DNA of 64,000 bases from Lepraria neglecta (taxonomy: Eukaryota > Ascomycota > Lecanoromycetes > Lecanorales > Stereocaulaceae), in contig CM065649.1 in NCBI GenBank assembly GCA_033220425.1, positions 4,340,001 to 4,404,000 on the forward strand. The letters are read 5' to 3'. A program made the translations under genes and the position numbers. This document shows, one piece after another, positions 23,848 through 44,823 of the stretch; positions within the stretch are counted from its first letter, which is position 1; every line of letters begins with the position of its first letter. The notes below the pieces were generated by a model. That model did no database searches. It had not been told where the DNA came from and saw only the letters and a list, made by a program, of their open reading frames with translations.

Positions 23848-24836
23848 ATGACCTTCACGATCGCCCCCGCGTTGCCGAATGACATCCCCTACCTCTCAAC
23901 AATCCAATGGGCCGCCCTCCTCTCAAACCCCCTAACCCAAACCCTCTACCCCCAAGGCCCCACCCCCACCCTGACAGCATTCACACGTGAATCCTACAAC
24001 AAAGCCATCCAATACCCCTCCGTGCGCCTCATCAAAGCCACAGATACGGAGCGTGGAGAAATTGTCGCCTTCGCGAAATGGATCGTTTACCCCGAAGAGG
24101 ATATAGATGAATGGGATGGGGCAGATACAGGGCAAACACAGCGCAGTGGCAGCTGGGCGAATGTGGAGGAGCCGCAGCGGCCACAGGAGGCCAATGAGAG
24201 GGCGCTGAGGGCGTGGAATGAGGTTATTAGTCGGACGAGGAGGGGGATAATGGGGAATAGACAGCATGCTTGTCAGCAGGCTGTGGCGGAGTGCAGTTTG
24301 GAGTGCTATTTTGCGTGTTTTGCGCCGAGGTTGTGGGGTAAGTCACATTGTCTCTAGAAATGGGGTACTGTATATCGCTGATCAAATAATTCCCAGTCCT
24401 CGACATAATACACACCCACCCCTCCCACCAAGGCCGCGGCGCGGGAGCCCAACTAGTAAAATGGGGCACCGACCTCGCCGACAAGCAGCGCCTGCAATGC
24501 TACCTCGAAGCCTCGCCCTACGGCTACCCCCTCTTCCGGCAATGCGATTTCCAAGAAGTCACGGAGATGGAAATTGATTTGAATAGGTATCGGGAGGGGT
24601 TTAAGGGGAAGTATTTGTATAAGCATGTTATTATGGTTAGGCCGCCGGATGTGCCGCCCAAGGTGCCACCGAAGGATCCTATGAGGGTGGGGTTGACGGA
24701 GGAGAGGTTGGTGGAGAGGGCGAAGAGTTTGGGCACGCCGGATAGTGGGGTTGTTGGGGGGTGGGATTTTGGGTTGTTGGATACGAGTCATTTAACTAGG
24801 AGGGGGGAGGTGGAGGACGGGGGAGAGGAGGGCTAG
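23848..24836 (+). CDS. GNAT-family N-acetyltransferase
   Basis: Exons: 23848..24337, 24397..24836; 309 residues. Residues about 1-60 (MTFTIAPALPNDIPYLSTIQ) form the start typical of fungal GNAT proteins of unknown substrate. The acetyl-CoA loop is HTHPSHQGRGAGAQLV just after the splice site (R/QxxGxG/A), followed by YLEASPYGYPLFRQCDF, the usual beta-bulge and C-terminal strand region. The 59-nt intron divides a Val codon and joins LW to VLDIIHTHP in frame. The C-terminus has an unusual Pro/Lys-rich linker (VPPKVPPKDP) and an acidic end. The gene is intact. The substrate may be a small molecule or a protein; nothing in the sequence decides. Confidence 0.87.
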
Positions 24837-25264: not shown

Positions 25265-25820
25265 TTACTCTTCATTGTCTTTTTGCTTTCCCTCGTCCTC
25301 CTCATCACCCACAAGTGTCCAATCTGTGTCCGTTCTCATGTCCTGCCCTGTCTTTGGTACAAAAGCTTGATCCGTCTCGTTCTCATCGCCTTGGTGTTTG
25401 TTTTTTTGCGGCTCATCGCCTTGTCGTTCATTGCTTACCAGCTCGTTACCGCTCGCAGCGACTATCGCCACGGGTATGCCTTGAGAAAGGTCTGCCATGG
25501 GGATGGGGTCCGTTGCGTTCGCCGTTCGCTGGCTCTGGTCATTGCGGCTGCCTTGTTCTGCGTCTGTCACCATTCAGTCAACCGTCACGTAACAACCTCA
25601 TAGAATAATACGTACCATTGTCGCGCTGTTTTGCTCGTTGTCTACCTTGCCAAAGAGCCACGCTGGCCATGAAGAACATCAGAATGCCGAAGAAGATGGT
25701 ACCGATGGAGTCTGGGCCCCACTGAGTTTGGTTGCCTGCTTGGAAAGGCGTGGCAGGCGTCATGCTGTAGGGAGGCATAGGTGAGGAGGTGTTGGTCAGT
25801 GGGTGAGTCAAGGGCGCCAT
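25265..25820 (-). CDS. small single-pass membrane protein, module copy A
   Basis: Exons: complement(25265..25563, 25616..25820); 167 residues, 52-nt intron. Unknown family. Residues 1-37 are Pro/Thr/Ser rich with FQAGNQTQWGPDS before one hydrophobic segment (about 38-57, GTIFFGILMFFMASVALW). This is followed by a basic stretch (QGRQRAKQRD), so by the positive-inside rule the N-terminus is outside or lumenal. The tail is long, polar and acidic, with a conserved block TDTDWTLVGD near the end. The start was chosen at the ATG that matches the start of the copy B protein; an upstream GTG frame is ignored. It lies 624 bases downstream of the NLR stop on the same strand. Function is unknown; it may be a membrane effector or anchor for the NLR system. 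Confidence 0.75.
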
Positions 25821-26074
25821 GATGCCTTTCGAAGGATTTGGGGTGTATTCTGGATGCCTGTGAAGGTAGGAAGCCACGAAGGCAAGGCTTCCATTTTGTA
25901 GACAGGTTCACAAGCGGAGAGTAGCCAATTTCGCCGCAGACTGATCATGAAGCGGGTCTCGCAATGTGATGAGTAGCATATACTTTCCGCCATTGGTCTC
26001 TATCCGCTAATTCTATGTACTTCTACGTTAAGTGATGGTATCTGCTTAGCATGCGTGTACTTCCACTCGCCGTC

Positions 26075-26093
26075 GGCTCGCTTCGCCCGCTTG
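26075..26093. promoter_or_regulatory. AAGCG-type element upstream of membrane protein A
   Basis: The plus strand holds CGCTTCGC flanked by CTCG and CCGCTTG, so the minus strand reads two imperfect AAGCG(A/G)-type sites back to back, about 255-275 bases upstream of the start at 25820. It is a weaker match than the other module promoters. The role is inferred from its recurrence only. Confidence 0.3.
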
Positions 26094-26444
26094 TTAGGAT
26101 AGGCTTTTCGCTATATCCGCGTGTTGGATCTATCTGTTTCCAGAGTGATTTCATACTTCATTATATATGCGATCAAGATCTAGAGCGATTGTAACAACGG
26201 GAAATCGGAGCATCATACTTGGCATAGACTGCCACACTATGCACAGGATGACGTAGCGAAAGGTGGAAATGCTTTGAAATATCGAAAGAACTCCGAAAGC
26301 CAATTCTTCCATCGTGTCCAATTCTCAAAGACAAACCGTGCTGCAGCATTCGCACATACTTTCTGCAACTAAGACGGCCCAACTCAATTCCCAAATATTC
26401 TGGAAGCGAACCAGCTGACGACTATCCTGCAACGCTTCAGAGTA

Positions 26445-29400
26445 TTAGGAGTTGCGACTGCGTACTGACAGTCGTGTGGAAGTGCCTCTTCTTGTTTTCC
26501 CGCTTTGGTCGCGTCTTCTTCCTAGAACACTCTGAATCACATTTTGCTTGCCTCTCAACGGGAGGAGGAGCTCTGGCCATTGACTCCGCGCGCCCGAAAT
26601 TTCTTCGCGGAAAGTCTGCCATATGATGAGATTCGCAACTGGATCGTGCCCATTTTCCGCCGCTTGTTCAAGAGCTGGACCCCAGCACTTTGCACCTATA
26701 TTAATGCGAACTCCTGCCATCACAAGTAATCTAACAATTGCCAAATGTCCATTCTTAACGGCCAATTGTAGCGCTGTGAAGCCATAATTATCTTGCGCTT
26801 CATGCGAAGCCCCAACTTCAATCAGTAGTCGCGTCACGGCCTCATGGCCATTTTGAGCAGCCTGGTGGAGCGGCGTCCGGCCGTGACAGTCTCGTGCATT
26901 GATATCAGCATACTTCATTGACCAAGCAAGCAGCCTTTCCATATCTTGCTCAGCGGAGCATCTTGCATCGTACTCCCATATAAAGGCGCCATTCTTGCAA
27001 CGATCACCGAAAATGTCCTCCGACCAGGTCTGGTAGTATGATTGCTGCACAATCTTATCGTATATATCTACAGCTTTTGCTGAAATATCCCGCTCATCCA
27101 CGAGGTGCTTGACTATATGGAAATGCCCACGGGCAGATGCTAGATGCAATGGTGTTTCGTTGGTGGTCTTCAAAACCGCATTCACATCTGCACCAGAAGA
27201 CATCAACAGCTTTGTGACTTCGAGGTGTCCTAAGGATGCAGTAACATGTATCAGCGTCATACCCGAATTTGACCAACATGCGCTGGTTAGGGCGCCATGC
27301 TGGAGGTCTTCGATATTGTCAACAGTGCTTGTTGCTGCGACGGGGCAAATGGGTGTTCCGCCATTGGAATAATTACGAGTGTTCACATCAGCGCCTTTCC
27401 TAAGCAAGAGCGCTACCGTTTCAGAATGACCCCCGGCTGCTGCGAGATAAATCGGGGGTGCGCAGTACGTGCACGATTCGCAGTCTGGCGACACGCCCAT
27501 CTCTAAATACATTTGCACCATAGCCCGGAACCCATACAAGGAGCAGATTCGGAGAACGGTCTGCATTATCTTGGTAGATCGGCCGTGTGGCCCCAGCCAG
27601 AGTTTCTCACAAGCATAATTGAGTTTTTTGCTCAAAATTCGTTGGAGAGTCGCAGGTAGTAGCTTGCTAAAGGGTTCAGCTAGACCATAATGGGACGCCC
27701 AGCTCTCAACTGCATAATTGACGAGAGCTGGAGTTGAGTCATCGAAACCGCCGGGAGCCCGCTGCGAAAATATACCGAGCAGGTATTGCTGCTCAACGTG
27801 GCCAGAGTCCAGTACCGTCAAACAAGTCTTGGCCAATAGCTCGTGAGCATGCCGCACTAAATGCCATGGCTGGGTTTGCGCATGAGTCGACAAAAGATAC
27901 CCTCGTATACTTGGATGCGCAAACTTGACGATGTTGTCATTTGTAATGGAGACAAGTGAACCGCAGAGGCTAGGGAGATCTCTTTCAGGATGCTGCATGT
28001 CGAGACTGCTTTCAGTCGCTGAATGGCTGGATCCACTCTCGATCCGGAGGGCTTCAACAAGCTCTGAGAGCTTCAGTGGTCGACGACTTGCCAACAACCA
28101 AGAGAAGACCTTGATGGCAACATCGACGTTCCGGTGTGGGATGCCTTCCAACGCCTTGCGATAAAGCCCATTCAGGCCCAATGGCAATAAGTTGACGTTA
28201 GTAAAGATGTCAGGAAGGGGTTGTGAGCGACATAGGTCTTCTGTGGCTAGAGTCATCCATAAGAATACCCCCTCAGCACGCGAGCAGAGTCGTTGAGCCG
28301 GTGCCAGAGACGAGACCCCCTTAAACCCGCTTGGGCGCAATGTGGAAAGCCTGTGTTTAGCAAAGCTCATCAGGTCGCGGTGGATGCCATCCTCCCTACT
28401 GAGTTTAATCTCTGTGACATGGTTCTGAAAACATGTGCTATTGTAGGGGGTCCGACTCGAAAAGCTACATCTGAGAAAATCGGTTTTGCGTCGCGCAGCG
28501 TTTGCCTCCACAACCTGGCGCGTGATAAGATCTTTCATCCATCCATCGCTGTCCAATCCGTCGAACACAAGAAAAATGCGAGCATCCGTTTGAACATCTG
28601 CGAAAATGATGCGTAAATGATGTTGAAAGATCGTGGTTGGTATTGGAAGAATCGATGTCTCGATGTCGGTGAGCATTGAACGCACCCTCGGCGTCATGAT
28701 CTTGATCCGATCGTGTAACTCAAGCTGAGAAATGAGGGTCTGCAGTATGAATTGCGCTGTGTCACTCCAGGAAAAGCTTTCGTCCAAGAAGCAGGAAATG
28801 ATTACGTTCTTAGACCGCTCTCGTCTCAAAAGGTCATCAACGATGGCGGAAGAAAGTACAGATTTGCCGGTACCGGCTACACCATGAATCCACAAGCAGG
28901 CCGGACCGTCTGCATTAAGCCACTTTTTGTATTGTCCGTGCCTCAACAGCCATGTGCATGTATTGGGTAATCGTTCTTCGGTGTATCTTGCCTTGAGGGC
29001 TTTCTGGTATTTCAGAGAAGTGTGACAGTTGTCATCTCTTCTTGTTGCAGCTGGAAATTATGAGAGATTGACTAAACTACGGAAAAGTCTGCTTACTCCT
29101 AATGATGCAGCCCACAGCGCCTTTCACACCTGTCTCGAATGCCGTTTGAGACAGCGATTGCGGCATTAGGTAATGTTGTGCAACCGAATCCAGCACATGG
29201 GATTGGGAGATGGTCGCCCACAAGCAATCTCCGTGGAGTAACTAATTCGTCAGCGGTGTTGAGCTATTAAGCTGGGCAGGGTACATACACTCGCATCGGA
29301 ACATTCCAACCAACTTTCTTGGCAGAAATGCACACTCATATAGAGTGAGGAGATTTTATCGAATGCAGAGGAAATATCCGCGAACGGTTTGAGCATCTCA

Positions 29401-30138
29401 GACGGTTCCCTGTATTCCCTCTCAGGATCACAGTTTTTCTGGAATTTGTGTGCCCAGCTTTCCACGTTGCCTGCGTGTGGGGTGCCCACAAATATCTGGA
29501 AGTGAAAGTTAGTACCTTAACAATCAGATTCTCTGCTGCTATAGATGGATCCACACAATTCCACATGTCCGGCGAGCTGTCGAAGTCAATTCTTCTAAGT
29601 TCTCTGCCAAAATCAAAGCCTGATTGAGTAGCAAGACTAGTCAGTATAGGCTTGGCACTGGGAAATAGGAGAAACTGCGTACCTCTTTCACAACCAATCC
29701 GCCAAGGCCTTCACAGACAAAAACCATTGAACGAGGCTCTCTTCCAATGTGCAACGTCGAGAGGTCAGATGAGATATGCGAATAACAAGATCTTCTATCT
29801 GGCTCAATCCGTAGGCATTCCGAAAGCAGAAGCACTGCTGCATTGCTAATCCTTTCGGGCTCGATGGCGCATAAATCAGAGGACTGGGCAATGTGTGGCA
29901 GGTAGTCATAGATATGGACTCGCGCTTCCGGAAAGGACTCTGTGAGCTGATCTTGGAACCGCTTTGGGTCCTTAGATGGTTGCCAGTTACCCTCTCGACA
30001 AGGGGTAAAGCCAGGGACGTAGATGAGCCTGTCTGAGTGCTTAGTGGTAATCACAGGTGCAAACAGCAAGTCATACTCAACGGCGGCATCTTCGTCATCT
30101 CGACCCTTCACCGAACTTCTGATGGCCTGCAATGCCAT
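26445..30138 (-). CDS. NLR: degenerate alpha/beta-hydrolase + NACHT + ankyrin repeats, module copy A
   Basis: Exons: complement(26445..29050, 29097..29241, 29289..29495, 29557..29619, 29683..30138); 1158 residues. Residues 1 to about 240 form a SesB-like (DUF676/lipase-type) alpha/beta-hydrolase domain: RLIYVPGF, then VCEGLGGLVVKEALILAE, then IFVGTPHAG. The usual nucleophile motif (G/C)HSLGG reads CEGLGG (C142-E-G144), so Ser and His are gone. The NACHT domain has Walker A GVAGTGKS (347-354) and Walker B IFLVFDGLD (449-457). Ankyrin repeats fill about 820-1090 (for example PPIYLAAAGGHSETVALLLRKGAD). Intron 29496-29556 has TACTAAC at its 3' end. NACHT NLRs are ATP-driven sensors; ankyrins are likely the ligand-reading part. 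The gene is intact by frame and divergent from the Zn2Cys6-ankyrin gene. Confidence 0.88.
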
Positions 30139-31074
30139 TGACACTTGGAGGTGAAAAAGAAAAGGTCAAACGCTTAACAAGGTAAGATTGGGGGAAGGAC
30201 TCCAAATCTTATAGCAAAGAGGAGTCAGGATTGTGTCCAATGGGACATGCCGCAAGCATAAAACCAAAACTAGAGTAAGGATGGGGACGTAATCTCGCTT
30301 TCTGACCGAGATATATGTGACTAGGCGCATGACGGACATCGGCTCGTGAACCTTTGTCTAAGTCGAGCTGCAGGGTGATTCACAGACGGGAAAATGTCTC
30401 TCTTAGGTCTAGCGGAGCCCACTCGAGTGGTCAGCCCCTGGTACGCGTTGTACGCCCCATTTGTATGAGGATGGGATCATTGCTTGATCATGCAATCCAA
30501 GGATAAAGCTGGCGAAGCGAATAAGCGAACAAGCGAACAAGCGAACTTTTCTGCGCTAGGAGATAATGGTAATATTACATTCGTAACATACGTATTCAGG
30601 CAGTAAATCGGGTCAAGCTCTTGAAACAAAAGGCACGTACCCGCTCAGCTCCTTTGAAAATTGGATAGGCTAAGTTAGTGGATTCTTGATTTCTGTAACT
30701 AACTCTCGCATACTTTAGCGTCGAAAAAAACCAGTACGACTTATTTAGCCGGCGTATGCGAAGCAAGCGTTGTGAAGAGATGTTTTGCGGATGCTTTAGC
30801 TCGCAAACATTATAAGACTGAGGTATTAGAAGATGTGATGCCGTCCCTGCGAAACTCAAAGGGGTAAGAGTATTGTACCCGGCTGGGGGCAGTGCGATGC
30901 GAAAAAACATGAAGTCGCCACACCACACTGTCCATTAGAATAGGCGTTCTCGCATGCTCTTTGCGAAGAGACCATAGACTCGCGCAATGACAGACCCAGC
31001 GCGAGAAGGACGTCGAAATTAATCAGGCTATCAGGCTTTCTGTTTCTTCAACTCCTCTATAACACAATCTTGCA
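30139..31074. promoter_or_regulatory. divergent promoter between NLR A and Zn2Cys6-ankyrin A
   Basis: These 936 bases separate two start codons pointing away from each other, so both promoters must lie here. The repeat cluster at 30511-30546 is the clearest signal; a further GCGAAGCAAGCG lies at about 30758-30769. No open reading frame was called. Confidence 0.6.
30511..30546 (+). promoter_or_regulatory. cluster of four AAGCGAA repeats
   Basis: Within 36 bases AAGCGAA occurs four times in direct orientation, three of them as regular units of eight bases (AAGCGAAC). It lies about 370 bases upstream of the NLR start and 530 upstream of the zinc-cluster gene. The same heptamer is clustered in the corresponding copy B promoter, so it is a candidate binding site, possibly for the Zn2Cys6 protein encoded beside it. 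Confidence 0.5.
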
Positions 31075-32878
31075 ATGCCTGAGGAGGGTAGGTCGGACAA
31101 GAAGACTCGCGCGTGGTCGAAATGTAGCAAGTGCCGCGAAAAAAAGCTAAAGGTAAGCACCCGGCGTAAGGCTGAGCCACGTAATTAATTGACTTTCGTC
31201 TGATTGCTTTGTCTTATAAAGTGTGAACCCGAAAACCGCAATTGGGAGGCAGACAAGCAGAAGTGCCTATATTGTCAGATTCACAATCTTCCTTGTGGTC
31301 CGGATTACACGAAAGATCAGGATCCAGGCGTAGGGTCGTCAACAAGAGGCGATGGAGGCCAAGATGCCACATCCCCTGAAGTTGGCGGAAGCCAGCAAGA
31401 TTCACAGCAGTCGATGGCAGTGACACCAATTCTACACACAGTCCAAGATGCCTCTCCTTTCATCCTCAATGTCACGACAGGGCCTACCCAGCAAGCCAGC
31501 GAGTTGTCACCAGCCACTACCACCTCTCCAAGGGACCGACGGGCGCGCATCCTGGCCCTGTCTGATGACGATCTGAGGGCCAAAGCTCTGTCAAAGTAAG
31601 CCATCATGTGGACATCGAAGACTCATAGCTGACTGCGATTCGGAAAACAGGTTAGAAAGGCTCAATGTTCTCGGAACCGCCCTGCTGTATGAACACGGTC
31701 TAGCTCCTGTGTCTTGCCATGGTTTCGGCGGGCACGAGGAATATAATAACATGGCAAACACTATATCCACTATCATCCGAGAAGAGATTCACTGCCTCTT
31801 CATATATATATACGATCTAGCATCCCAAGCCGATACCCGGACCCACGCTGGTCTAGCCCAGGAGATAATGTTGAAACTTCTTCTTGCGCTTGAGAGATAC
31901 CCCGGGCTATGCGACGGCAAAAAGCGGGGCGCACTGCTGAAGATCGCCTTCTTTTTCCAGAGAAACAATGACCTATATGAATTCGAACACATCCTGGGCA
32001 AGGTCGCCGATCTCTATGAAACCCCGATGCTTCCTCTTCACCCAAATCCCTACCCTTTGTTGGCCGAATCATTCTCGAAGACTTCGGAGAAAGCCCGCGA
32101 AGTCCTCGCAAGCCTCTGGCATGAGAAATTCGGCGTCGACGCATCAGTGAACTTAGCCATACCACCCCTACAACGCGCTGCGCAAAGATCTAATGTGGAT
32201 GTGACCCTTGCTGTATTACAACGTCCGGAAACCCACCATTCTGCCCCGGCAATGCTCGACCAGCAAGCATTACATATTGCTGCGGCCTCCGGCTATTTTC
32301 AGACACTCCACCAGCTCATCAATATCGGGGCCATTCTCGATGCTCGAGACCTCCACAGTCGCACTGCACTATTCTTGGCAGCAGCGAACGGACATGAACA
32401 ATGCTGCGAGATACTCTTGACACGTGGGGCCGACCCTAATGCCCGTAATGCGCATGGCCATTCTATTATGGAGGTCGCAGCCCAAGGTGGCTTTCTCAGC
32501 GTCATACGGCAGCTCATCGCATGGGGCGGCAATGTTAACCCACTATTGGGAGCTTGTTCATCAACGCCACTACAAGCGGCCGTGGAAAGCAGCAATTTCA
32601 CCTATGACCTTGTTCAGTATCTCGTTGACGCCAATGCCGACGTGAGCAGCCAGCGACTGGACGGCAAGAACGCGATAGAACTGGCTGAAGGGCGCGGTTT
32701 GACGATGTTGGCAGATAGTCTGCGCCAGAAGAAGAGGGAACAGGAGACTCAATCCTCACAAAACCATCTTTCCCCTCAGGACCACCTATCCCCACAAACA
32801 CATCTGTCTCCATTCGGTCAGGACTTTTCTGTGCCATTCGACTTTGGAAGCCCGAGCTATGTTCAAGGCTTCACCTAG
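31075..32878 (+). CDS. Zn2Cys6 cluster-ankyrin repeat protein, module copy A
   Basis: Exons: 31075..31152, 31222..31595, 31651..32878; 559 residues. Cysteines 17, 20, 27, 41, 44 and 51 form CX2CX6CX13CX2CX6C with a basic CREKKLKC, the Gal4-type binuclear zinc cluster, though the middle loop of 13 is slightly longer than usual. A Ser/Thr-rich linker follows, then a helical region with EEIHCLFIYIYDLASQAD (about 195-320), and then ankyrin repeats (about 320-500, ALHIAAASGYFQTLHQLI and following). The C-terminus has three NHLSPQ-like units (HLSPQ). The first intron falls exactly between Lys26 and Cys27. It is expected to bind DNA in the nucleus; the ankyrins may contact the NLR partner. It lacks the usual fungal_trans middle homology domain. 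The gene is intact. Confidence 0.85.
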
Positions 32879-34220
32879 GGCTGCATTCAGTGGTACCAAA
32901 GTGTGTTCATAATCAGGATGGACATATGGTCGGCGTTCTTACGAAGCTCATGAGCGGTATTCTTGTCAAAAATTACGGATGCATCCGCTGGCCTTGCAGG
33001 TAGAAAACCTCGGTCATGCATAAGTCAACATAACCCATGCATGCTTTTGGATAAAAGACTTGCAACCCTATCGCTCTACAATCAGTGACCACTATCTTCT
33101 TGTAATCACAAATGATTCCGTAGGAATCATTGCGCCTTACTGTCTTCCGAATGGACGCTTGAGCCTTACCGAGTGGGCACCGGGAGATTCTGTCGGTGAA
33201 TGGAGAAAGCTTCGCAGGCTGGAAGCACATAGCCATTCGCCGAAACCGAAGCAGAAGCAGAGTACAATCGGCTGATGGTGTGTTACTACTTCAAGGAGCC
33301 ACTGTGAGCTTTTGTCCTATCCTCGATTCAAGGAAACCAAATGTGCCTTGCTCTCGCAGTGTACCGCACTAAGCAGGGGTATAAAGATGCCTGGATGTTG
33401 ATTGGTTCTTGCGCCCACGCCTCGGCCGCATATCAGCCTCCACGGAATCACAGAGTCACAAAGTCCTTACAATTAGCTCTCTCCTTCTAGCAAAATGACG
33501 TATACTAGGAACCTTAGCATATTGAAGACGACTTGATTGATTCTCTATGGGAGATGCTTGCTATTTATGCGTACTAGGCAGTAGGGCTGAGTAGGGCTGA
33601 GAGGTGATTTATGCTAACGAGGAAAGACCACTTTCAGCATCCTGAGTAGAATGCACCATCGTCTGTGCGAAGCATGAGCCCCTGACTTAGGCGATATATA
33701 AATTAGGACATCGCCAATCTCAGGCAATTCTTCTACGAAAGTGTGTCAGATTCAAGACTGTCCTGGTATTTTGAGATTTCTCTCGATTGCTTCTCTCCAA
33801 TTTTACACCCTGAAAAGCATTTATAAATTTTGGAAGCTTCAACCTTCCTACACCCCATCTAGACACCGAGTTGATGCTGGTACATGACCTTGTTAGCGCG
33901 AAGGGCTGACAGCTAAGCCATACAGCTTGGAATTTTGCTCGTTCCTACATAAATTTCCAGATTCTCATCATGTTGATCCCTTCTAGCTTTTCAACTTGGT
34001 AATTTGCGTTACCACTGGACACCGATATCATCGTACCAGCTACCAAGATCCACAGTAGCCTTTGCTAGTTCTTTGAGCACTTCCTTCTCACGAATACTCC
34101 TTTGCACAAATTCTGGTGGGCTGAGTGACATTGATGAGCTAGAGGCTGTTCAGGATGGTGACAATCAATATTGGAAAGCTTCTATCATAACCTATAGATT
34201 CTTGTTGCGAAACATGAGCA
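32879..34220. other. spacer between module copies A and B
   Basis: No gene was recognised. A 12-base direct repeat (gtagggctgagtagggctgag) lies near 33581-33602. The stretch holds the 3' ends of the copy A zinc-cluster gene and the copy B membrane protein gene, which converge. Confidence 0.45.
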
Positions 34221-34845
34221 TCAGTCATCCTCATCCTTTTCTTTTCCCTCTTCCTTGGCCTCATCATCATCGCCTACAAGCGTCCAATCTGTGTCCGCTC
34301 TCAACAAGGCCTGCCCAATCCTTGGTACAAAAGAAAGATCGATCTCGTTCTCGCTACCTTGCGTCTCACTGCCTTCTTGCCCGCTGACTCGAACGTCTAC
34401 TGCCGACCAATCTCCAATTCCTCGAAGAATTTCGGCCATTGGGATGCTGTCCATGACGCCCGCCGTTCGAGCTTCATGGCTGTTGCCGCTGCCGTGCTCT
34501 GCGCCTATAACCGTTTAGTCGATTCTACTAAGACCTGTAAGATCACTTACCCCGTTTGGGGCGAATCACTAGCTGTTCACCATGCTCCGCGTCTAATACC
34601 ATTTAGCTAATGCCTTAGAAGGCTCACAGAAACGACGTACCATGCTCGCGCTGTCTTAGTCGTTGTCTGCGTTGCCAAAGAGCTATAGTGGCCATGAAGA
34701 ACATTAGAACGCCGAATACGATGGTGCCGATGGAATCTGGGTCCCATTGGGTCTGGTTGCCCGACTGGAAAGGGGTCTGCTGCGTCACAGTAAAAGGTAC
34801 ATCATGGGACGAGGCATTGATGGATGGTGCGGAGAAGGCTGCCAT
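34221..34845 (-). CDS. small single-pass membrane protein, module copy B
   Basis: Exons: complement(34221..34504, 34641..34845); 162 residues, 136-nt intron at the same codon and phase as in copy A. The block QTPFQSGNQTQWDPDS at about 22-38, the hydrophobic segment 38-57 (GTIVFGVLMFFMATIALW), the following basic QRRQRLRQRE and the late TDTDWTLVGD are shared with copy A at almost identical positions. The rest has diverged, which points to selection on those blocks. An acidic Lys/Glu/Asp-rich end closes the protein. No known family is recognised. It lies downstream of the copy B NLR on the same strand, with the MITE between. Confidence 0.75.
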
Positions 34846-34982
34846 TATGCCTTGTATTAGGTGTTTTGTGATACTAGAATTATTTGTTGCCCGACTGTGG
34901 AGTGAGTTTGAGGTTGTAGCAAAGAAGGTATGTCTGGGGGGCTAGGCAACATTTTTGTAGGTAGATTGCACTGGGGCGTCCA

Positions 34983-35136
34983 CTTCGCTCCAATTATCAC
35001 GAATCAAGCGCGAGCTTCGCAAGCTTTGAGAAATCTTAATAGAGCTAAAGATGCGTTGAAGCTAGGAATACGGCCGTTGATAAGTCACTCGCATAGCACG
35101 CTTCGAGTCTCGCCCATCCATCTTCGCTTCGCTTAT
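34983..35136. promoter_or_regulatory. AAGCGAA elements upstream of membrane protein B
   Basis: The plus strand reads TTCGCTTCGCTT at 35123-35134, giving two overlapping AAGCGAA sites on the minus strand, about 280 bases upstream of the start at 34845. Related CTTCGCTC and GAGCTTCGCAAGC lie at 34983-34990 and 35012-35024. The similarity to the other module promoters is direct; the function is inferred. Confidence 0.42.
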
Positions 35137-35673
35137 AGTCTACGCGCCTAACTACGGACAGATCGAGCGAACAACAACCCAACAAGAAGCGACTATTGCG
35201 ATTCTAGCCATTCGTGCCAATTTACTACTCCAGCATCAGTCTGTGTGCACAGTTTTGTCTCGCTCGACACGGTGCTTTACGGGTGTAGAGAGGGACGTTC
35301 GGGGACTCTTAGGGGTTCGCACTGGGAGAGAGTCTTTAGCGATCTGCACTGCCATTCTCCAAACATACATGTGCTTAGTATTAGGATCATGTGAGATATT
35401 AAAGCAAACAAACTCCAGTACAAACATATTGCGCCTTCGATATACATACTCTATCCTATCAATAATCCAAATGACGAATAGGCGAGATAATCTTATCCGA
35501 CATGCTCATATCCGCCAATCAAGGTTGTTACTACTTCAATCTGAGAAAAAATCAAGGTCCAAAGTACGAGCACATGAAAGATTTAAGGCCAGTATCTCAG
35601 CCAGCAAATGTTCACGGGGATAGAATCCTTACCTGCCGCCAGATCACATCCCAGAGTTTCCTGGCAGGAAGTA

Positions 35674-35925
35674 GAAGGGTTCACCCCCTGAGTTGTCAAA
35701 CCCGCTGAGTTGTCAGTTGGGTCCTAAAAGGTTCCTCCGGGGAACCGAATTGAGCCCCGAGACGGACTAAATCCGAAATCTCTGGGGGCTCTCGCTATCC
35801 CCCAGACGACCAGCTTTAGGCCCTGTTCAGGGGCGGCCCGGGGCTCAATTCGGTTCCCCGGAGGAACCTTTTTAGGACCCAACTGACAACTCAGCGGGTT
35901 TGACAACTCAGGGGGTGAACCCTTC
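35674..35925. mobile_element. MITE with about 86-base terminal inverted repeats and TA target duplication
   Basis: The left arm starts GAAGGGTTCACCCCCTGAG at 35674 and the right arm is its reverse complement ending at 35925. The arms match over about 86 bases with a single A insertion/deletion in an A run. TA flanks both ends (35672-35673 and 35926-35927). The 252-base element has no coding capacity. TA duplication suggests mobilisation by a Tc1/mariner-like transposase (PIF/Harbinger prefers TNA targets). Each arm contains an inner duplication of the word TGAGTTGTCA. Near-identical arms indicate a recent insertion. The right junction lies in the stop codon of the NLR gene. Confidence 0.85.
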
Positions 35926-38900
35926 TAAGTCTGCGCGTCGTAATTAGTGAGTGCGGACCTGCTATGGGTCCCTCGTGCGGACCTCCGTAGTCTCTTTCTG
36001 TGCATAGCTTCTTGAATGACGTCTTGTTTCCCCTTGATCGCTAAGCGAAGCACTGGCCGCCGACAACCCTGATCTGTAACTCCGGTACTGAATCGTTGCC
36101 ACATAATCATGTTCGCTATCTCATGTTGCCCAGTTTTGCTGGCGTTCTTAAGTATCCTTCCGATCTGCTCTGCTCCTGCATCCACATCTGCTCCTGCTTC
36201 TAGGAGAAGCTTAACCACTTCGCGATGCCCATTTTCGGCTGCCACTTGAAGTACTGGGAATTTATCTTCTCCATCTCTTTGGACAATAGCTCGCCTTTCT
36301 AGCAGAAAACGCACTATGGCTTTGTGGCCTCTAGCCGCTGCGAGATATAGCGCTGTCCATCCTTCGCAAGTCCGCATGTTAATGTCGGCGTATTTGCTCG
36401 AATACGATAGTAACTTTTTGAAATGGCTTCGGGCGGGATAATCCTCATCTAAACCCCATATGTTTTCAGTATGAGCATCAGCTGCGAGCAAATTTTTGAT
36501 CAATGATTGATAGTACGGCTGCTGCACTATCGCATTGTAAAGCTCAATTTCTTTCGCTGATGGATCGCCACCAAAAACCAAGTACTCGACGACTTCTAGA
36601 TGTCCATGCATGGCAGCTAAATGTAAAGGTGTTTCTTGACTCGTTGGGACCACTGCGTTTACATCAACGTCGTAGTCCATTAAGAGCTTTACAACATCCA
36701 AATGTCCAGAAGCAGCAGCAACGTGCAGTAGTGCTCTCCTAGAACCGGAATCGACTGCGTCCACTCGAGCGCCGTAGGTTAGAAGTAGCTGAACCATAGG
36801 CAGTGAACCTTGAGCCACGGCAAGATGCAGAACGTCCTGGCTGCTGCTGCGGATATGTGAGATGATGGAAGCTCCTTTCTGGAGTAGAAGGGCTGCCACA
36901 TCCTTGTGACCCCCAGCGGCCGCAATGGCGAGCGGACTCTCGCAGAAGCAGCAACGATTTGGCGTGGGTGGAGCTCCTGTCTCTAGGCACAATTTTGTAA
37001 GAGTGAAGAAGCCATAGCGCGCAGAAAATCTTAGCGTGGCGTTTGAAATTTGGATCGAGCGTCGACTGAGGCTTACGGGCAAAGACTCGCAAGCATATTC
37101 CAGGGTGGTGACGAGGCATCGCTGTAGCGTCCCCGCAAGAATCATGCTCGACGTTTCCGCATGGCGATAGTGGACTGACCAGTTGGCGATGGCGTAATTC
37201 GTCAGATTCGAAGCCAAACCCCTGCTTGTATCCTGGGAGTCCGAGATGTTGGTACAAAGCCAGGAGGTGTTCTTCCTATCCCCCGTTTCCAGTAGTCTTA
37301 AACAAGTTCTTGCCAGGAACTCGTGTGCCTCAAGTAAGAGGTACCCAGACAGCCTGGAATTTTTCTTGGATATTAAATGTGTCCGTACGCTTTGGTGTCT
37401 GAATTTGACCACGCCATCGCCTGTGATAAGGATGAGCCATCCACAGATACTGCAAATCTCTTCTTCGGGGGGTTGTGCCGTGAGCTTGGCGCGTGGCGAA
37501 GCTTCACGGACGTATGTTTGTGGGGAGTCAAGCTTGATAGACAAAGCTTCAAGAAGCTCGGAGAAATATAGAGGGCGGTTAGCCGCCATCAGCCAGTAAA
37601 AAACACTTCGAGCAATTTCAAGGCTCTGAGACGGCACAGCCTGTAAATTTTGATGATAAATCCCATCGACAGTAGCAGGTATCAACTCAATCTGATTTGG
37701 CAAGTCAACAACTGACTTCATGCGATCAATCTTCTCCATAGCCAATGCTACCCATAGAAAGATCCCGTTAGCACGAGAACAAAGGCGCTCCACAAGAGAA
37801 GTGACCGATAGGGATTCGTGATACGAGGCCCAAGACGTATGAGCAAGCCGTACCGAAGCAAACTCTTGCAAATCTCGTTGGAGTCCAGGCTCGACATCCA
37901 AGTTGATCTCAGCCACGTAATTTCGCAAAGCAGCGTCGAATGTAGCCTGAGTCGAGATAGTACATCTAAAGACGTTTGATCTTTGCCGGGGCAGGTTTGC
38001 CCAAATTATCTCGTTCATGATGACCGTCCTGATCCAGTCGTTGCTGTCCAAGCCATCGAGGATTAAGACAATGCGGGCCTGATCACTAACACCTGCAAGC
38101 ATCGTCCTCAGACAACGCTGGAAAGCTTCCAGTGAAACGGGAACTTCAAGCCTTTCGATTTCTTTTAGTGTCGATCGCAGCAAAAGGTCGGACACAATGG
38201 GATTGCGACAACCTCTCAGCTGGTAGACGAAGGCTTTCAATATGTATTGGGCACAGTCTAGTTGGCCTAATCCTTCTTCAACGAAACAGGAGATGGTGAC
38301 GTCCGGGTATTGCTCGCAGCGTCGAAGGTCGGCGATCATTGCTGAGCACAATGTTGACTTGCCAGTACCAGGCTGGCCATGAAGCCACAGAAATGGGGGG
38401 CCCACCGCGTTAGCCCACGCGTTATAGTCCTGGTGAGCAAATAGCCAATTGCAGGTATTCGACATTCGCTCTTTGGTGTACATATCCAAAACATCCTGCT
38501 CCCGCTGGAGATACGTGGCGTAGCTCACATGATTGCTCGCTGCTGCTACGCAAGATCTCAGAAAAAGAATATTGGGGTTCCGAACATGATGTTTGGTTAC
38601 ATACCTTCAACCATGCAGCCGATAGAGTGCACAACGCTGCTCCTGACAACATCCTGGGGTAGAGAATTTGGAACAATATAGTGTGTTTCCTCATTTTTGG
38701 GGGCTTGAGACTGTGAAATCACTGACCACAGGCAGTCTGGATGGACAATCTATTGACAGAGTAAGATCTTGAGTCAGAAATCAAGTCCTATAGAAACACA
38801 AAAAATTACTCCGAAGGTAAGGGGGAACTTTACACTATTGCCGGAGCACGAACTGACATCTTCGTAGCAAAAATTGACACTCAAGTACGAACAAGCTACC

Positions 38901-39659
38901 CGATGGAAAGCGTTTGTAATTGAAGAAAACTGTCCGGAAAGCTCTGGGGAGTGCAATTTCCACCAATCGAGAGTGTTGCCACCAGCATGCCCCAAGGTTA
39001 CGTTTTCTGCCCATGTTCGTGCTTCACTTGGATGTGGAGTCCCGAGGAATATCTGTGACAGAAATAAGTTTCTCTGCTTGATCAGAGTATATGGATCATT
39101 TCTTAGAACTCTCTCACAATTCCGAACGTCTGATAGAGCAGAGCACACGGACCGCTTAGCATCTCTCCCAAAAGCAAGGCCTGTTAATCGTCAACAACGC
39201 CAATACGGGGAGTGATATTCATTGTGCCTTTTTCACAACCAGACCGCCAAGACTATGGCATACGAAGAGGACAGGCCTTGATTGTCTACTTTGAAAGCTT
39301 GACTTTCTGGACATCGCACTGTCCGCTGGATGAGAATCGAGCTGCTCCCACTCGGACAACAAGTTCTCAGCGGCGTCGTGAATCTCACTGCCTAGAGCCA
39401 TGTTGGCGACGTGGCTTTGGTAGTTGTAGAGAAATGTTCGAGCTGCTGGAAACTGCTTTGGTAGCCATTCTTCAAACCAATTTGGATCCCCAAGGATTTC
39501 CGAATTGTTCGAATGCTGGCTAAGGAGGCCATGTACGAAGATAATGCTGTTTTGACTGTGAGCAATCGAGAGTACAGCTGATTATGCGCAGATCTTGTAC
39601 TCAATCATCGGATCAGGGTGATTCTGAATTTCAACGAGACCTTTCTGTTGGGTCACCAT
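35925..39659 (-). CDS. NLR: alpha/beta-hydrolase + NACHT + ankyrin repeats, module copy B
   Basis: Exons: complement(35925..38545, 38605..38749, 38834..39052, 39118..39180, 39228..39555, 39601..39659); 1144 residues. The N-terminal SesB-like hydrolase keeps IIFVHGLLSQ and an intact nucleophile VCHSLGGLVVKK (Ser121), then IFLGTPHPSEARTW. NACHT Walker A is GQPGTGKS (328-335) and Walker B VLILDGLD (431-438). Ankyrin repeats occupy roughly 800-1080 (PLAIAAAGGHKDVAALLLQKGA and following). The intron after Lys129 would use a GC donor (39227-39226); an in-frame GT donor nine bases earlier is an alternative. The stop TAG at 35925-35927 overlaps the MITE junction, so the original end may have been different. 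The extra first exon relative to copy A restores the frame through a 45-nt intron. Confidence 0.85.
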
Positions 39660-40712
39660 CTTGTGCTCGGGTGCAGAATTTCGACTATAACGACGATACG
39701 ATCTCTCCTATAAGAAATGCGCATCAGTCGTACTGGTCCAAGCGATGCTCCGAATCAACGTACATAATCAAGCGCACTGGTATGTGACATCCTCAAGCAA
39801 TGTAGACTGTCTTTCACGATTTACTGCGGCCGGCGTATTAAACTCGAATCTCTCACTAAAACGCTATTTAGGATGAGGGCGACAGTAAATTGTTCAATCT
39901 CAGCTCGAGCATGCACAAAGGAGAAATCATTCCTCAGCCTGATGCTAGTCAATATTGACGAAAATGGGGCGCCGCTGAAGGACATACCTTAGATAACGCG
40001 CGGGGTCCACCTCGACTACGGCTACTCGCTCTTCAGTGTGCATGAAACGATATGCGTTGCACATGTACACTCAGCCTTTGTCTCTTCCGCAACCAGAATA
40101 GTACCCGGCAAGAGGTACCTAGCACTAATTTCGAATGACGTGTAACCATGTCGGCGTTCCTGAATCCATGATCCCACGATGAGATTGCCCACTAGGCAGC
40201 CGTGAACAGCTGATCACCTATTAAAGTAGAGCCATATTGAGTCTCTGCTAAAGAGTTGGCCGCCTTGACTGATTGGTAGGCTAATGGAAATGCGCAACGC
40301 GAAGCGACCAAGCGAAGTAGAAGTTCTATGCTAATTTCAAGCGAAAGCGGAGGCGAAGTACAACATATAAGCGAAGTGGACTTCAGGATTTTCTCGCTCC
40401 GCAAACGCGTCGAAATGCAACAAATGACACAGGTCAATGTGTTCCCTACAGATAGAATGCACGTGGAATACCATAAACCATTCGGGCAGCTTTGCAGAAC
40501 TGTGAATTGACTACACCCTATTCGTTGACGTTCGCTAGTTCTTTTTGCGAACGCTGCGAACGCCTGCAAATGCCTGCGCTTCGCCACAAGTAGTTCGCAA
40601 CATGGCAAATATGGAGATGAGCCTCAAGACAGTTGCTACACAAGAGCTTTTCGTCTGTCTTCTTCGGTCTTTTCTTCAACGGTCTCTTCATCCCATCCAC
40701 AGACATGTGGCC
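39660..40712. promoter_or_regulatory. divergent promoter between NLR B and Zn2Cys6-ankyrin B
   Basis: These 1053 bases lie between the two start codons of copy B. They contain the AAGCGAA cluster at 40299-40376 and further GCGAACG-type words near 40545-40585. The 138-codon minus-strand frame here has no domain and crosses the cluster, so it was not called. Confidence 0.55.
40299..40376 (+). promoter_or_regulatory. cluster of three AAGCGAA elements with variants
   Basis: Exact AAGCGAA at 40310-40316, 40339-40345 and 40369-40375, all in the same orientation, with the variants AAGCGAC at 40302-40308 and GGCGAAG at about 40352-40358. The cluster sits about 340-415 bases upstream of the zinc-cluster gene start. 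Position and word match the copy A cluster although the surrounding sequence has diverged. Confidence 0.5.
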
Positions 40713-42413
40713 ATGGTGGACAAATCGAGTCATAATGCGGACAAGGCACCGTCAGGACCACGAGACTCGGCTAAATGCAGTGAGTGTCGGAAACGGAAAA
40801 TTAAGGTCAGCAAGTAGCGTGGCAAACTCCACCATGCTCGCAGTTCGTTATTAACCTCTTTATACATTATTGCAGTGCAAGCCGCACGATCGAGACTGGG
40901 ATAATGGACAGCAGAGATGTGATCATTGTGAAGACAAAGGCCTAGACTGCGGACCCAACTTCACCAACAAGGAGGACCCCGGCGTGGTCCTGCAGGGTCG
41001 GGGAAATTCTGTTGCAGGCAGCAGTCCAGAAGCATCACAACGTCCAGCACCCGAACCATCGTCAAGACGCTCTCGCTCACCACGTAAAACTGTGACTTCT
41101 GCTTTGCGTAGTAGGACAGCACATGGTCAAAGAAGACGCGCGCGGTCAACAGAAGGCGGCGGCGGTAAGGGCAAGGACCCTATAAAGCATGTGGGCGCCT
41201 TATCCAGCCACCAGCTCACGGAGGAAGCGCTCTCCAAGTAAGTGAACATCCTAAGCTCTAGTGAGGTCCCCTTTCTAATGGCGATGCTCCTGCTTCTAGG
41301 CTCAACGACTTTAATGCGTTGGTAACCATATTGATATCCGCATCCCAGCTCCCGCCTGTCCCTTGCGGACATCCTCGCGACCCACAAGGATACCTCTCCA
41401 CCGTCAAAGACCACCTACATTGCTTATTCATTTATATATTTCGGCTGGGAACCCAGGCCAATGAAAGGGCTCAGCATGACCAAGTCCGATGGATTCTTTC
41501 GGAACTCGTCCGTGCGTTGGACAAGCACCCAACACTCTACGATGGTCGGAAGCAAGACGCGTTGTTGGAAATGGCCTTGATATTTCAAAACTTGAAATTG
41601 CCATGGGGCAGTGAACATATATTATGGAAAATCTGCTGTGCAAACGACACCTCACTCCCCGAACTGCTCCAGAAGGCATGCTATCTACTGGCCGAGTCTC
41701 TATGGAGCACCTCTGAGACGATTCGTCAGCTTTTCGAGAAAATTTGGCAGATGACATCCGTCTTTGAAAGGCCATCGAACATGGACGTTCCACCATTGCA
41801 GCGTGCCGCCCAAAACCCAAACCCTGGTGTCGTTACGGCTGTTTTGTCACAAGCCCACAGAACCAGCTCACCGCCAACCATGTATACTGAGCAGGTTACG
41901 GATGATATGACAGCCCTGGAACAGCGCGAGTGGGACCAAGTGAGGACGGTCACTGACACCAGAGACTGTCTCGGCCGCACTTCCCTATACTTGGCCGCTG
42001 CCGATGGCCATGAACACTGCTGCTTTGCTCTACTTCGGGCCAATGCTGATCCTAATAGCCGCGATTCCCATAAGCATACTGTATTAGAGGTTGCGGCCCG
42101 AGGAGGTCATCTAAGAGTCGTTACACAGCTTCTCACCGCCGGGATTGACGTCAATCCGCAAATGGCTGGCTGTGCTTCTTCACCTCTACAAGCAGCCATC
42201 GAGAGCGACAACTTCCAATTTGACCTTGTGGATTCTTTACTCAAGCGAGGGGCAGACGTGGAAGTCCGCAGGCTCTGTGACGACAAGAACGCGATAGACC
42301 TTGCGCAAGAAAAAGGATTACTCGACCTAGCACGCCACATGCAGGAGCATTACTCTAACCCGCATGATCATTTCCCACTACGTCACCAGAGTGCCGGTCA
42401 AGCTTCCGCTTAA
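40713..42413 (+). CDS. Zn2Cys6 cluster-ankyrin repeat protein, module copy B
   Basis: Exons: 40713..40805, 40876..41237, 41300..42413; 522 residues. Cysteines 22, 25, 32, 46, 49 and 56 reproduce CX2CX6CX13CX2CX6C, with the basic CRKRKIKC. The first intron again precedes the third Cys and the second again splits a Lys codon at the end of the linker (EEALSK), as in copy A. The linker is Arg/Ser-rich and may carry nuclear import signals. The helical block DHLHCLFIYIFRLGTQA corresponds to the one in copy A. Ankyrin repeats follow (about 360-500, SLYLAAADGHEHCCFALL and following). The start at 40713 was chosen because it gives a start context like copy A; an upstream in-frame ATG would add an unlikely leader. 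The gene is intact. Confidence 0.84.
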
Positions 42414-43480
42414 GGTGGTTAATAAAGTTATTTTTAACGAAGTCCATGAGCACATGTGGCGCTTATGGATGATAGAGCTGGGACGATTGAACGACTGGCT
42501 CACGATTTCCTATGTCTTTGGGTGGTAATCTGATTTACAGAGCCATCCATTCTGTATAATGTTTGTTGTCTAAATGGCGCCAAAAAGTCGAGTAGCCCGT
42601 TAGGTGGTCTGCTTGTATTACATTTTTCGAGCCATCATTCTTGTTTGTTCACTCACAAAAGGTGGTTTGTCGTGCGTCATTCAGAAAGACACTGGTATTG
42701 TTTCAGCATGTACGACTTAGCGATTTAGCAAGCGAGGTCTTGATGGTGCATCAACGCAGACAGCTTGAAATGGAATAAAAGGCACAGTACACTATTAAAG
42801 CCCATTAAACTTGCCCGTTTGATACACATAGTTTGAACATGGACAGTCAATAAATGTATGTGGAAGGCAATCTGCTGGTGCACGCAATACAAAGAATATT
42901 TTCATACACCCCATTGATTCTCCGGAATCATAAGATCCGGCCTTAAACGAATGGAGCCCGGGCGCCGCTTGAACCCCGGAGCGCCCTGGAGGACGTCCCA
43001 AGTTTTTTCCCTCGCTCGAGACTCATGTTTCGCCCCCAATGCTCGCTTCTGGCAACTCCTAGCCCAATTAGTTGCCGTCTTCTCCGTCCTTCATCTATCT
43101 TCTAGCATCTATGCGAGAAGTCGTGTGCCTTTGTCATCTCCTGCAAACTACCTCTACATGATATCCACTGAACCCCTCTCTTTGCACATACTGCCAGTGT
43201 GGTAGTACTTCTTCCAGCGCTACCCATGCTTTGACTCTGCCACAGTCCTAGCCAACCCTACTACGATGAGCTCTAAGAACGCGAAGCTGTGCTGACCATA
43301 GAATATCATTCCGTCTGTGAGTCTTCTATTCCTGGGCAGACATTAGGACATTTAGTGTTCTATTCCTGAGAAAGAAAGGTTGATGCCTAATAGCTTCAGC
43401 CTTACTGTTTCCAACCTGTTTACAGAACTTTCAGTTCATCGTCGCTTCAAGGTGTTCGCCGAAGCGGCTTCGTTAAATCC
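42414..43480. other. intergenic, right flank of the duplicated module
   Basis: No gene was recognised. Short frames near 42800-43205 lack any domain. No duplicate of the MITE or of the AAGCGAA cluster was noticed here. Confidence 0.4.
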
Positions 43481-44823
43481 ATGGCCATGAATCAGACTAC
43501 ACTAATTCATGGCGTCACGCCGACAGTAGACGAGCTTACTGGATATATCAACGCCCGAGGACGGGCATGTAGTTTACCACAGCCAAAGACACATAGCACT
43601 GAGCTCTCATATTACCATATCGAAGTCGAGGACTTTATCCGAGGAGTAAAGAAATCCGCAGAAAAGTTCTTCCCGCATGATACCTACCGGTACAAGGAAG
43701 TCCATGCATTACTCTTAAGTTGGATGGACGATGATTTGGGGGTCATTCACGAGGTCCAAGAGCTTGAAAAAGTGTTTGGGGATGACTACTACTTTACATT
43801 TATACGGACATGGGAGATCCCGTCCCTCAAGCCGTACTCAAAGCTGGAGGATGAGCTGTATGGTTTTAAGAAAAGTTATTCTACCGACGAGAACCTCTTG
43901 GTGATCTACTAAGGCGGTCATGGTTATCTGGACAACAGTCGCCTTTGCAAATGGGTTGCAATTCGGTGAGCGTCGAGATCCAGCACTAAGTGTTATAGTA
44001 TTGAAGATGCTGACGGTTTCCGTAGCAATATCTCGGCCCCTACCCTTGACTGGCATGCTCTCCAAATTGGATTGGAGCACGCAGATTCTGATGTACTAAT
44101 AATTCTTGACTCTTACGCATCCGCCGGGGCTTCTGGAAGCTCTAAGAGTACGAGGTGCAAGAAGGCGGCACGACAGAACCGATTACGGCTTGTAGCTTTG
44201 AGACCGTAGCGCCTGGACCTGGTCCGCATTCATTTACGAACGCTCTGATCAGAGAGCTGCGGGAGATGTGCAGCTCAAAACCCTCATTTGCAGTCAACAT
44301 GTTACATCAGAGACTTGTTGCCCGATTAGTGCATTACAGCCCTCAATATTCTACCCACACGATCCATGCATGTCCAGCAGGAACTGGCCAAGAACATCGT
44401 GCAACACCAGTGTACATCTTCTTGGGCAGAGATATCCGGCTAAAAAGTATTCCTTTGAGGTCTATGCACACGCGGCAGGGACAGGCACAACGCTCCCCAA
44501 ATCCTGTGTCTATCTCGAGCGGAAGTGTCAGCCTCCCAATGGGAGTATTACTCAATCATCTTGAACCAGCTGTCCGGCGCCCTTTAAGCGCAGACACGTG
44601 GGCCCAAGTCTTCCTGGCAATTTCATTACGCGGCGATAGTTGGCAACAGCACAGCCGTCTGTTGTCTGACTGGCTGCGAGGTATGCCATTGCTAGCTGTA
44701 AGTATCAACATCGAAGCTATCTTTCGAGGCTCATCAAGCTGCATCCAGGTTAATCTGAACTCTATTGTTGACAATCCACGCTATCAAGCAGAAAAGCCTT
44801 TCGTCATCTTCCGACATATGTAG
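43481..44823 (+). pseudogene. caspase-like (peptidase C14 type) domain gene, fossil
   Basis: The start MAMNQTTLIHGVTPTVDELT is followed by a p20-like fold: YYHIEVEDFIRGVKKSA, a later GGHGYLDNSR (the His motif), VLIILDS (the strand before the nucleophile) and ETVAPGPGPHSFTNALIRELREM. This is the layout of fungal caspase-domain proteins that accompany NLR and HET genes. The C-terminal part (to 44823) has no recognised domain. The copy is broken by a few interruptions and the usual catalytic Cys pair is not recognisable, so it is treated as a fossil. It sits about 1 kb beyond the NLR module and may once have belonged to the same cell-death repertoire; that link is inference. Confidence 0.6.

Follow-up and report, generated by a model that had tools for sequence, protein, structure and literature searches.

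Several described systems of fungal NLR proteins come close to the locus analyzed here. NLRs of fungi may combine an N-terminus of SesB-like (alpha/beta-hydrolase) type with ankyrin repeats (PMC9815663; PMC4986451; PMC12881547), NLR genes occur in clusters with one or two partners, as in nwd2/het-S and in two- or three-gene NLR-effector clusters (PMC12881547), and a guard pair is formed by PLP-1/SEC-9 (PMC10197012; PMC12881547). The present analysis concerns a stretch of 64,000 nucleotides (nt), hereafter the window, on contig C4 (5,201,525 bases) of the 11-contig, 42,023,604-base genome of Lepraria neglecta (Lecanoromycetes, Stereocaulaceae). It carries two modules, A (25265-32878) and B (34221-42413), each made up of a gene for a small membrane protein (minus strand), an NLR gene (minus strand) and a gene for a Zn2Cys6-like ankyrin protein (plus strand), the last being referred to as transcription factor (TF), with identical order and orientation. 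With NLR clusters and guard pairs already known, the part that appears to be new is the constant presence of zinc-cluster-ankyrin and single-pass transmembrane (TM) neighbours. It is highly probable that the three genes form a functional module, and there is about an even chance that they are inherited together as an NLR guard module that regulates itself, present here as an old A-B pair. The six gene models, built by hand, are as follows:

25265..25820, minus strand: small A, single-pass membrane protein; exons 25616-25820 (205 nt) and 25265-25563; 167 amino acids (aa); TM helix at about residues 38-56; acidic tail with TDTDWTLVG
26445..30138, minus strand: NLR A; exons 29683-30138, 29557-29619 (63 nt), 29289-29495, 29097-29241 (145 nt) and 26445-29050; 1158 aa
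31075..32878, plus strand: TF A; exons 31075-31152, 31222-31595 and 31651-32878; 559 aa; zinc-cluster-like, with ankyrin repeats
34221..34845, minus strand: small B, single-pass membrane protein; exons 34641-34845 (205 nt) and 34221-34504; 162 aa
35925..39659, minus strand: NLR B; exons 39601-39659 (uncertain), 39228-39555, 39118-39180 (63 nt), 38834-39052, 38605-38749 (145 nt) and 35925-38545; 1144 aa
40713..42413, plus strand: TF B, Zn2Cys6-like ankyrin protein; exons 40713-40805, 40876-41237 and 41300-42413; 522 aa

The span 25265-42413 runs exactly from the stop codon of small A to that of TF B, and in each module the NLR and TF genes are transcribed divergently, with about 1 kb between them. 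All introns in the models are GT-AG, save one that is GC-AG. A preliminary description of the locus had proposed two copies of one three-gene set in the same order, with matching exon lengths and intron positions, and this is borne out by the gene models and by blastp homology. The first exon of the small genes is 205 nt in both modules, the exons of 63 and 145 nt are NLR exons of equal length in A and B, and both TF introns lie at corresponding places, with an exon sum ahead of intron 2 of 452 versus 455 nt and equal phase. The last exons of the two NLR genes encode proteins with 38% identity over 857 aa (E 0.0) and those of the TF genes 40% over 362 aa (E 6e-81), with 38% identity for the whole TFs and 56% for the whole small proteins. 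The layout is tandem, as had been stated, and because the NLR and TF copies are just 38-40% identical, the duplication behind it is judged from this divergence to be an old event. No further homologous pairs of open reading frames (ORFs; at least 40 aa, E<=1e-5) were found between the modules.

All good copies of the three families that were found in the genome lie at this locus, in searches that scored the best candidates only, exon by exon. For the small protein, searched with copy B, there are two good copies, each of them in the window, with the next place at E 2.5e-4. The NLR (query B, 516 residues) likewise has two, NLR A being recovered at E 1.7e-111 with 39% identity and the next place having 26% and E 1.3e-19 (83 of 106 candidates scored). 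Both TF copies (query A, residues 1-329) are also in the window, and no third place was found in the genome at E<=1.

Co-occurrence in other assemblies was assessed by a proxy, in which matches on contigs of identical size in bases were taken to be on the same contig, neighbouring genes not being read. Protein searches gave 18 small, 26 TF and 41 NLR matches, with about 8000 candidates scored for the TF and NLR and the NLR list limited to E 1e-40; the window's own small match and seven NLR matches from P0083 on, which lie below a clear score gap, were left out of the count. The refuting case of homologues that are mostly unlinked was not found in these searches; 10 of the 65 distinct contig sizes (17 small, 26 TF, 33 NLR) recur across families. 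These comprise 12 coincidences (three small-TF, six small-NLR, three TF-NLR), and a 61,077-base contig carries all three families. For comparison, the null for 12 coincidences, with sizes jittered by up to 20%, had a mean of 0.013 and a maximum of 2 in 20,000 draws. One of the common contigs is just 12,339 bases long. In Stereocaulon virgatum, the small protein N7G274_001294 and the NLR N7G274_001296 have locus tags two apart; since the former is nearer to small B (48.7%) than to small A (40.6%) and the latter nearer to NLR A (63.8%), the pair is consistent with the window order NLR A, TF A, small B. As all good copies found are here and the families recur together elsewhere, the earlier suggestion of the three genes acting as a unit has good support, with the qualifications that linkage elsewhere is by proxy and that no complete small-NLR-TF set of one type was found in any other assembly matched.

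In the phylogeny of the NLRs, NLR A falls in a clade of 14 rows (99/100) and NLR B in one of 10 rows (98/99), beside which lies a third clade, C (100/100), of ten rows (P0066, P0067, P0069, P0073, P0075-P0079 and P0081). Within the A part of the TF tree there are two corresponding groups, of 5 and 16 rows, TF B being on a long branch of unsure placement; all 26 TF matches are nearer to A, no close relative of TF B having been found among them. A contig of 1,891,075 bases carries one NLR A (P0053), one NLR B (P0074) and one TF A. As P0053 and P0074 are on one contig size, the A-B pair is probably older than the separation of the Lepraria/Stereocaulon group from the lineage with this contig. A-type and B-type members of different families are also found together on contigs of 61,077, 1,505,976, 1,709,365 and 4,983,072 bases, which is consistent with a linked A-B pair. 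We take all named relatives that score above the gaps to be Lecanoromycetes.

In domain content each module was confirmed to hold what had been described, namely a hydrolase-like/NACHT/ankyrin NLR, a single-pass protein and a Zn2Cys6-like ankyrin protein, the zinc cluster being divergent. NLR A has a putative hydrolase-type N-terminus, NPHP3_N/NACHT, a winged helix and ankyrin repeats, an architecture that resembles that of the SesB-like NLRs; NLR B has a putative hydrolase-type N-terminus with CHSLGG, NPHP3_N/NACHT and ankyrin repeats. NPHP3_N scores of 80.2 and 78.5 bits (NLR A and B; cut-off 24.8) identify the NTPase core of a fungal NLR and Ank_2 scores of 123.8 and 148.5 bits its C-terminal repeats, with the NACHT profile itself at 20.7 and 17.1 bits, below its cut-off of 26.7. 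The locus differs from SesB-like NLRs in its fixed small-membrane and zinc-cluster-ankyrin neighbours and in the loss of the hydrolase serine in NLR A. At the position given by the serine nucleophile-elbow motif, the residue is Ser in NLR B, P0071 and P0070 and Gly in NLR A, P0080 (Stereocaulon) and P0068 (three of six each). Highly conserved internal DNA repeats were not seen here either; the listing of direct repeats of at least 40 nt over positions 20000-48000 gave repeats between the modules only, none of them outside the small genes. For allorecognition NLRs, PMC4986451 gives repeats more than 85% alike over at least 100 aa; the best internal ankyrin pair of NLR B is 0.42 alike, and a crude repeat pattern caught one repeat in NLR A.

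The small protein consists of a 37-residue N-terminus, one hydrophobic helix (38-56), a basic stretch and an acidic tail. Two N-glycosylation sequons lie in the N-terminus of both window copies. Small B corresponds to the deposited OEA41_008372 of Lepraria neglecta, the deposited model being 14 residues longer (92.05% over 176 columns). The refuting case named beforehand, a small protein confined to this genome, does not apply: 17 of the 18 matches are other than the window's own gene (P0005), and the named relatives outside Lepraria are in Stereocaulon virgatum and Alectoria fallacina. A juxtamembrane motif, Q[TS]QWxPDSIGT, is present in all seven small proteins that include exon 1, and a tail motif, [DE][WG]TLV, in all 18 that include the tail, 16 of them with Trp; both sets contain P0005, and three Ala-bearing tails were scored by eye. 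A reading of TDTDWTLVG as an Atg8-binding motif was dropped because two of the 18 tails carry Gly for Trp. Elsewhere in the genome there are two weak relatives of the small protein that share its TM motif (C8:3688624 and C5:2569844), within open frames L026 (C8:3688423-3688872) and L027 (C5:2569775-2569963) carrying QWxPxxxxTIVFG, the L027 match containing a stop. They were rejected as parts of the module, with none of the 55 NACHT places found in the genome within 500 kb of them, and perhaps represent a wider fungal TM family.

As in the nwd2/het-S clusters, the NLR gene here has a small partner gene beside it, the combination being retained as a unit. The differences are that about 300 residues precede the NTPase domain (NPHP3_N starts at residue 320 in NLR A and 301 in NLR B) instead of a short amyloid motif, that the partner is a TM protein and that the third gene is transcription-factor-like. 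The arrangement of an amyloid-signalling pair, in which a short N-terminal amyloid motif replaces the effector domain, was not found, a formal amyloid-motif search not having been made. It could be supposed that the small protein acts after the NLR, as a killer or as an effector on membranes, with the TF setting dose only. Clustering of sensor and executioner is a known fungal pattern (PMC12881547), and the small protein has one clear TM helix on the exon best conserved between the copies. Against this, the NLR already has an N-terminal region of its own of about 300 residues, the tail is acidic and a second strong TM stretch is absent; this alternative is considered unlikely. A membrane guardee rather than an executor is the role tentatively assigned to the small protein, at somewhat less than even confidence. 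The logic proposed would then be analogous to that of PLP-1/SEC-9, in which an NLR watches a small endogenous protein; that pair has patatin and tetratricopeptide repeat (TPR) regions where hydrolase-type and ankyrin regions stand here, and the small protein has no SNARE sign.

The conservation of the ankyrin part also bears on what the NLR may do. Among the seven clade-A relatives compared, ankyrin conservation exceeded that of NACHT (53-58% versus 45-49%) in the four outside the nearest group; the near relatives P0049 and P0050 had ankyrin/NACHT values of 95/95 and 92/90, and P0080 is without the ankyrin part. Because of these four, the NLR is suggested to watch a conserved partner. The same comparison could be accommodated by signalling rather than immunity, with the NLR as a switch that holds or releases the TF and the small protein as a receptor in the membrane that perceives some stable cue, for example the algal partner. 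The TF is also above the NLR in conservation on the 1,891,075-base contig (68% versus 52%), and the relatives with names that score above the gaps (Lepraria, Stereocaulon, Alectoria and two Xylographa) belong to lichen genera. Restriction to lichens is not established by the few named matches of a word-limited search, nor is a ligand, and a signalling role is held to be no more probable than an executor.

The TF has a six-cysteine spacing of C-x2-C-x6-C-x13-C-x2-C-x6-C, found in TF A, TF B and P0042 and agreeing with that of Zn2Cys6 clusters. The region between zinc cluster and ankyrin repeats has no Pfam name. Among solved structures, the zinc cluster is best matched by AlcR of Aspergillus nidulans (PDB 1f4s), with which it shares a long Cys3-Cys4 loop; the match is weak (E 0.0037) and AlcR differs in lacking the ankyrin repeats found here. 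The half-site of AlcR is TGCGG (PMC12941744) and has a GCG core in common with WGCGAA, a word that recurs in the upstream intervals of the modules:

25821..26444, no strand: upstream interval of small A; WGCGAA four times, AAGCGAA once
30139..31074, no strand: divergent interval of NLR A and TF A; WGCGAA eight times, AAGCGAA four times, clustered at 30515-30545
34846..35671, no strand: upstream interval of small B; WGCGAA six times, AAGCGAA twice
39660..40712, no strand: divergent interval of NLR B and TF B; WGCGAA seven times, AAGCGAA three times, at 40310-40375

Within these four intervals (3,439 bases) WGCGAA was observed 25 times versus 3.5 expected, and AAGCGAA 10 times versus 0.42 from background and 0.7 from dinucleotide shuffles, with none of 1000 shuffles reaching 10. 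The candidate word is WGCGA; WGCGG is near background (14 versus 10.9 expected), CGG being below it (58 versus 77). The WGCGAA count of each single interval was reached by one or two of 384 half-overlapping genome windows and by none of 42 ORF-poor windows, a control made stricter by drawing some windows from loci chosen for motif density. As the word had first been spotted in these same intervals, a hold-out was run, in which the 5-, 6- and 7-mer that ranked first in module A did so in module B too, out of 495, 1192 and 1613 words; in reverse, the best words of module B ranked first in module A among 480, 1047 and 1370 words. The words are nested and therefore count as one test, not three. 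Autoregulation through WGCGAA is considered somewhat probable. At least three copies of AAGCGAA occur at four genome places in a list read by eye, namely both NLR-TF intervals, C1:4872811 and C7:2932893, and no NLR-like ORFs were apparent by eye near the latter two.

Pairs of AAGCGAA no more than 30 apart occur at 87 genome places; the reversed-pattern control for such pairs carries no information, AAGCGAA being identical when read backwards. A wide AAGCGAA regulon was considered and dropped because all 20 fetched places, of 36 outside the window with the 15-mer AAGCGAA[CT]AAGCGAA (counted by eye), are copies of one repeat. A high-copy repeat that carries the 15-mer includes these 20 places (L030-L049), which are 85-95% alike along some 1.8-3 kb.

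That an old segmental duplication merely holds unrelated neighbours together, with an inherited promoter word, is very unlikely, since, for all that tandem copies are linked by descent at the start and both modules stem from one ancestor, the families co-occur in several assemblies despite 38-40% divergence, no further ORF pair (at least 40 aa, E<=1e-5) was found between the modules and one 7-mer is top-ranked in both promoter sets.

A number of points weigh against a guard module that is inherited and regulated as a whole. Equal contig size is a proxy, and long contigs are no proof of closeness; no other assembly showed a complete set of one type, and of the 15 distinct contig sizes above 100 kb, counted by eye, 5 are found in more than one family and 10 in a single family. 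None of the ten rows of NLR clade C has a small or TF match on a contig of equal size, and neither of the two TFs of Xylographa (Ostropomycetidae) has a partner match. Missing partners mean little in themselves, because many matches are on short contigs or single exons and the search depends on shared 5-residue words; unlinked members may exist. The TF zinc clusters reach 12.5 and 16.0 bits, below the Pfam Zn_clus gathering score of 21, and are therefore called Zn2Cys6-like. The hydrolase assignment of the NLR N-terminus is weak, with profile matches of E 0.13 for DUF676 (NLR B) and E 0.0023, below cut-off, for PGAP1 (P0071) and a best solved-structure match at chance level (E 1.2). The 5' end of NLR B may be damaged or mis-modelled, since the model requires a 45-nt intron (39600-39556), without which there is an in-frame TAA, and the GC-AG intron at 39227-39181. 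The tail tryptophan is replaced by Gly in 2 of 18 small proteins. Finally, the common word could come down from the ancestral interval without having been maintained by use, and pairs of AAGCGAA are also found in repeat copies elsewhere in the genome.

For a self-regulated guard module, the following working is envisaged. The Zn2Cys6-like ankyrin protein would bind WGCGAA and drive its own gene, the divergent NLR gene and the small gene. The small protein would sit in the membrane as the guarded partner, oriented so that the N-terminus, which can be glycosylated, lies outside and the acidic tail faces the cytosol. The stable ankyrin domain of the NLR would watch a conserved partner, most simply the tail of the small protein or the ankyrin repeats of the TF, and on disturbance of this partner the NLR would oligomerise and then act. 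NLR B, in which the hydrolase serine is kept, may execute; NLR A, in which it is lost, would be a sensor or regulatory partner unable to act by the usual hydrolase chemistry. We infer guarding, autoregulation and cell death in this way, and the earlier assignment of sensor, membrane part and transcriptional control follows predicted domain content, the last of these gaining support from the common promoter words.

Outside the modules, a GNAT match below cut-off lies on the left flank (24393-24833, plus strand) and a RAI16-like gene on the right (48282-51020, minus strand), neither with a second copy in the window. Directly downstream of TF B, at 43394-44820 (plus strand), lies what may be a decayed caspase-like (C14) gene, which was left out of the module; its open frames are broken, an in-frame stop precedes GGHG, Ser stands where Cys is expected, and no Pfam match was found for it. 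An inverted-repeat element at 35672-35927, with 71-nt arms that are 92% complementary, overlaps the NLR B stop codon with its edge. It is like a miniature inverted-repeat transposable element (MITE-like) and has at least 100 genome matches among the matches listed, many of them arm fragments.

In a literature search whose coverage leaves out most subscription journals, no title or abstract opening among the papers listed describes a Zn2Cys6-ankyrin/NLR/TM cluster, and no description of an NLR locus in lichen fungi was found among them. A fuller and rather improbable proposal is that, in the A-B pair, a protein with an AlcR-like zinc cluster and ankyrin repeats controls its own gene, the NLR and the guardee through WGCGAA, and that an executor NLR with the hydrolase kept is joined to a dead-hydrolase sensor; such a circuit would be new to fungi, the pair being a counterpart of the sensor-helper NLR pairs of plants, and could allow the lichen thallus to sense a partner or a pathogen. 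Fungal NLRs are abundant, and their triggers and control mostly obscure. A module that combines a receptor, a candidate membrane partner, a candidate regulator and a visible promoter word makes the questions of trigger and control directly testable, and lichen fungi gain a concrete candidate locus for the sensing of self, partner or pathogen.

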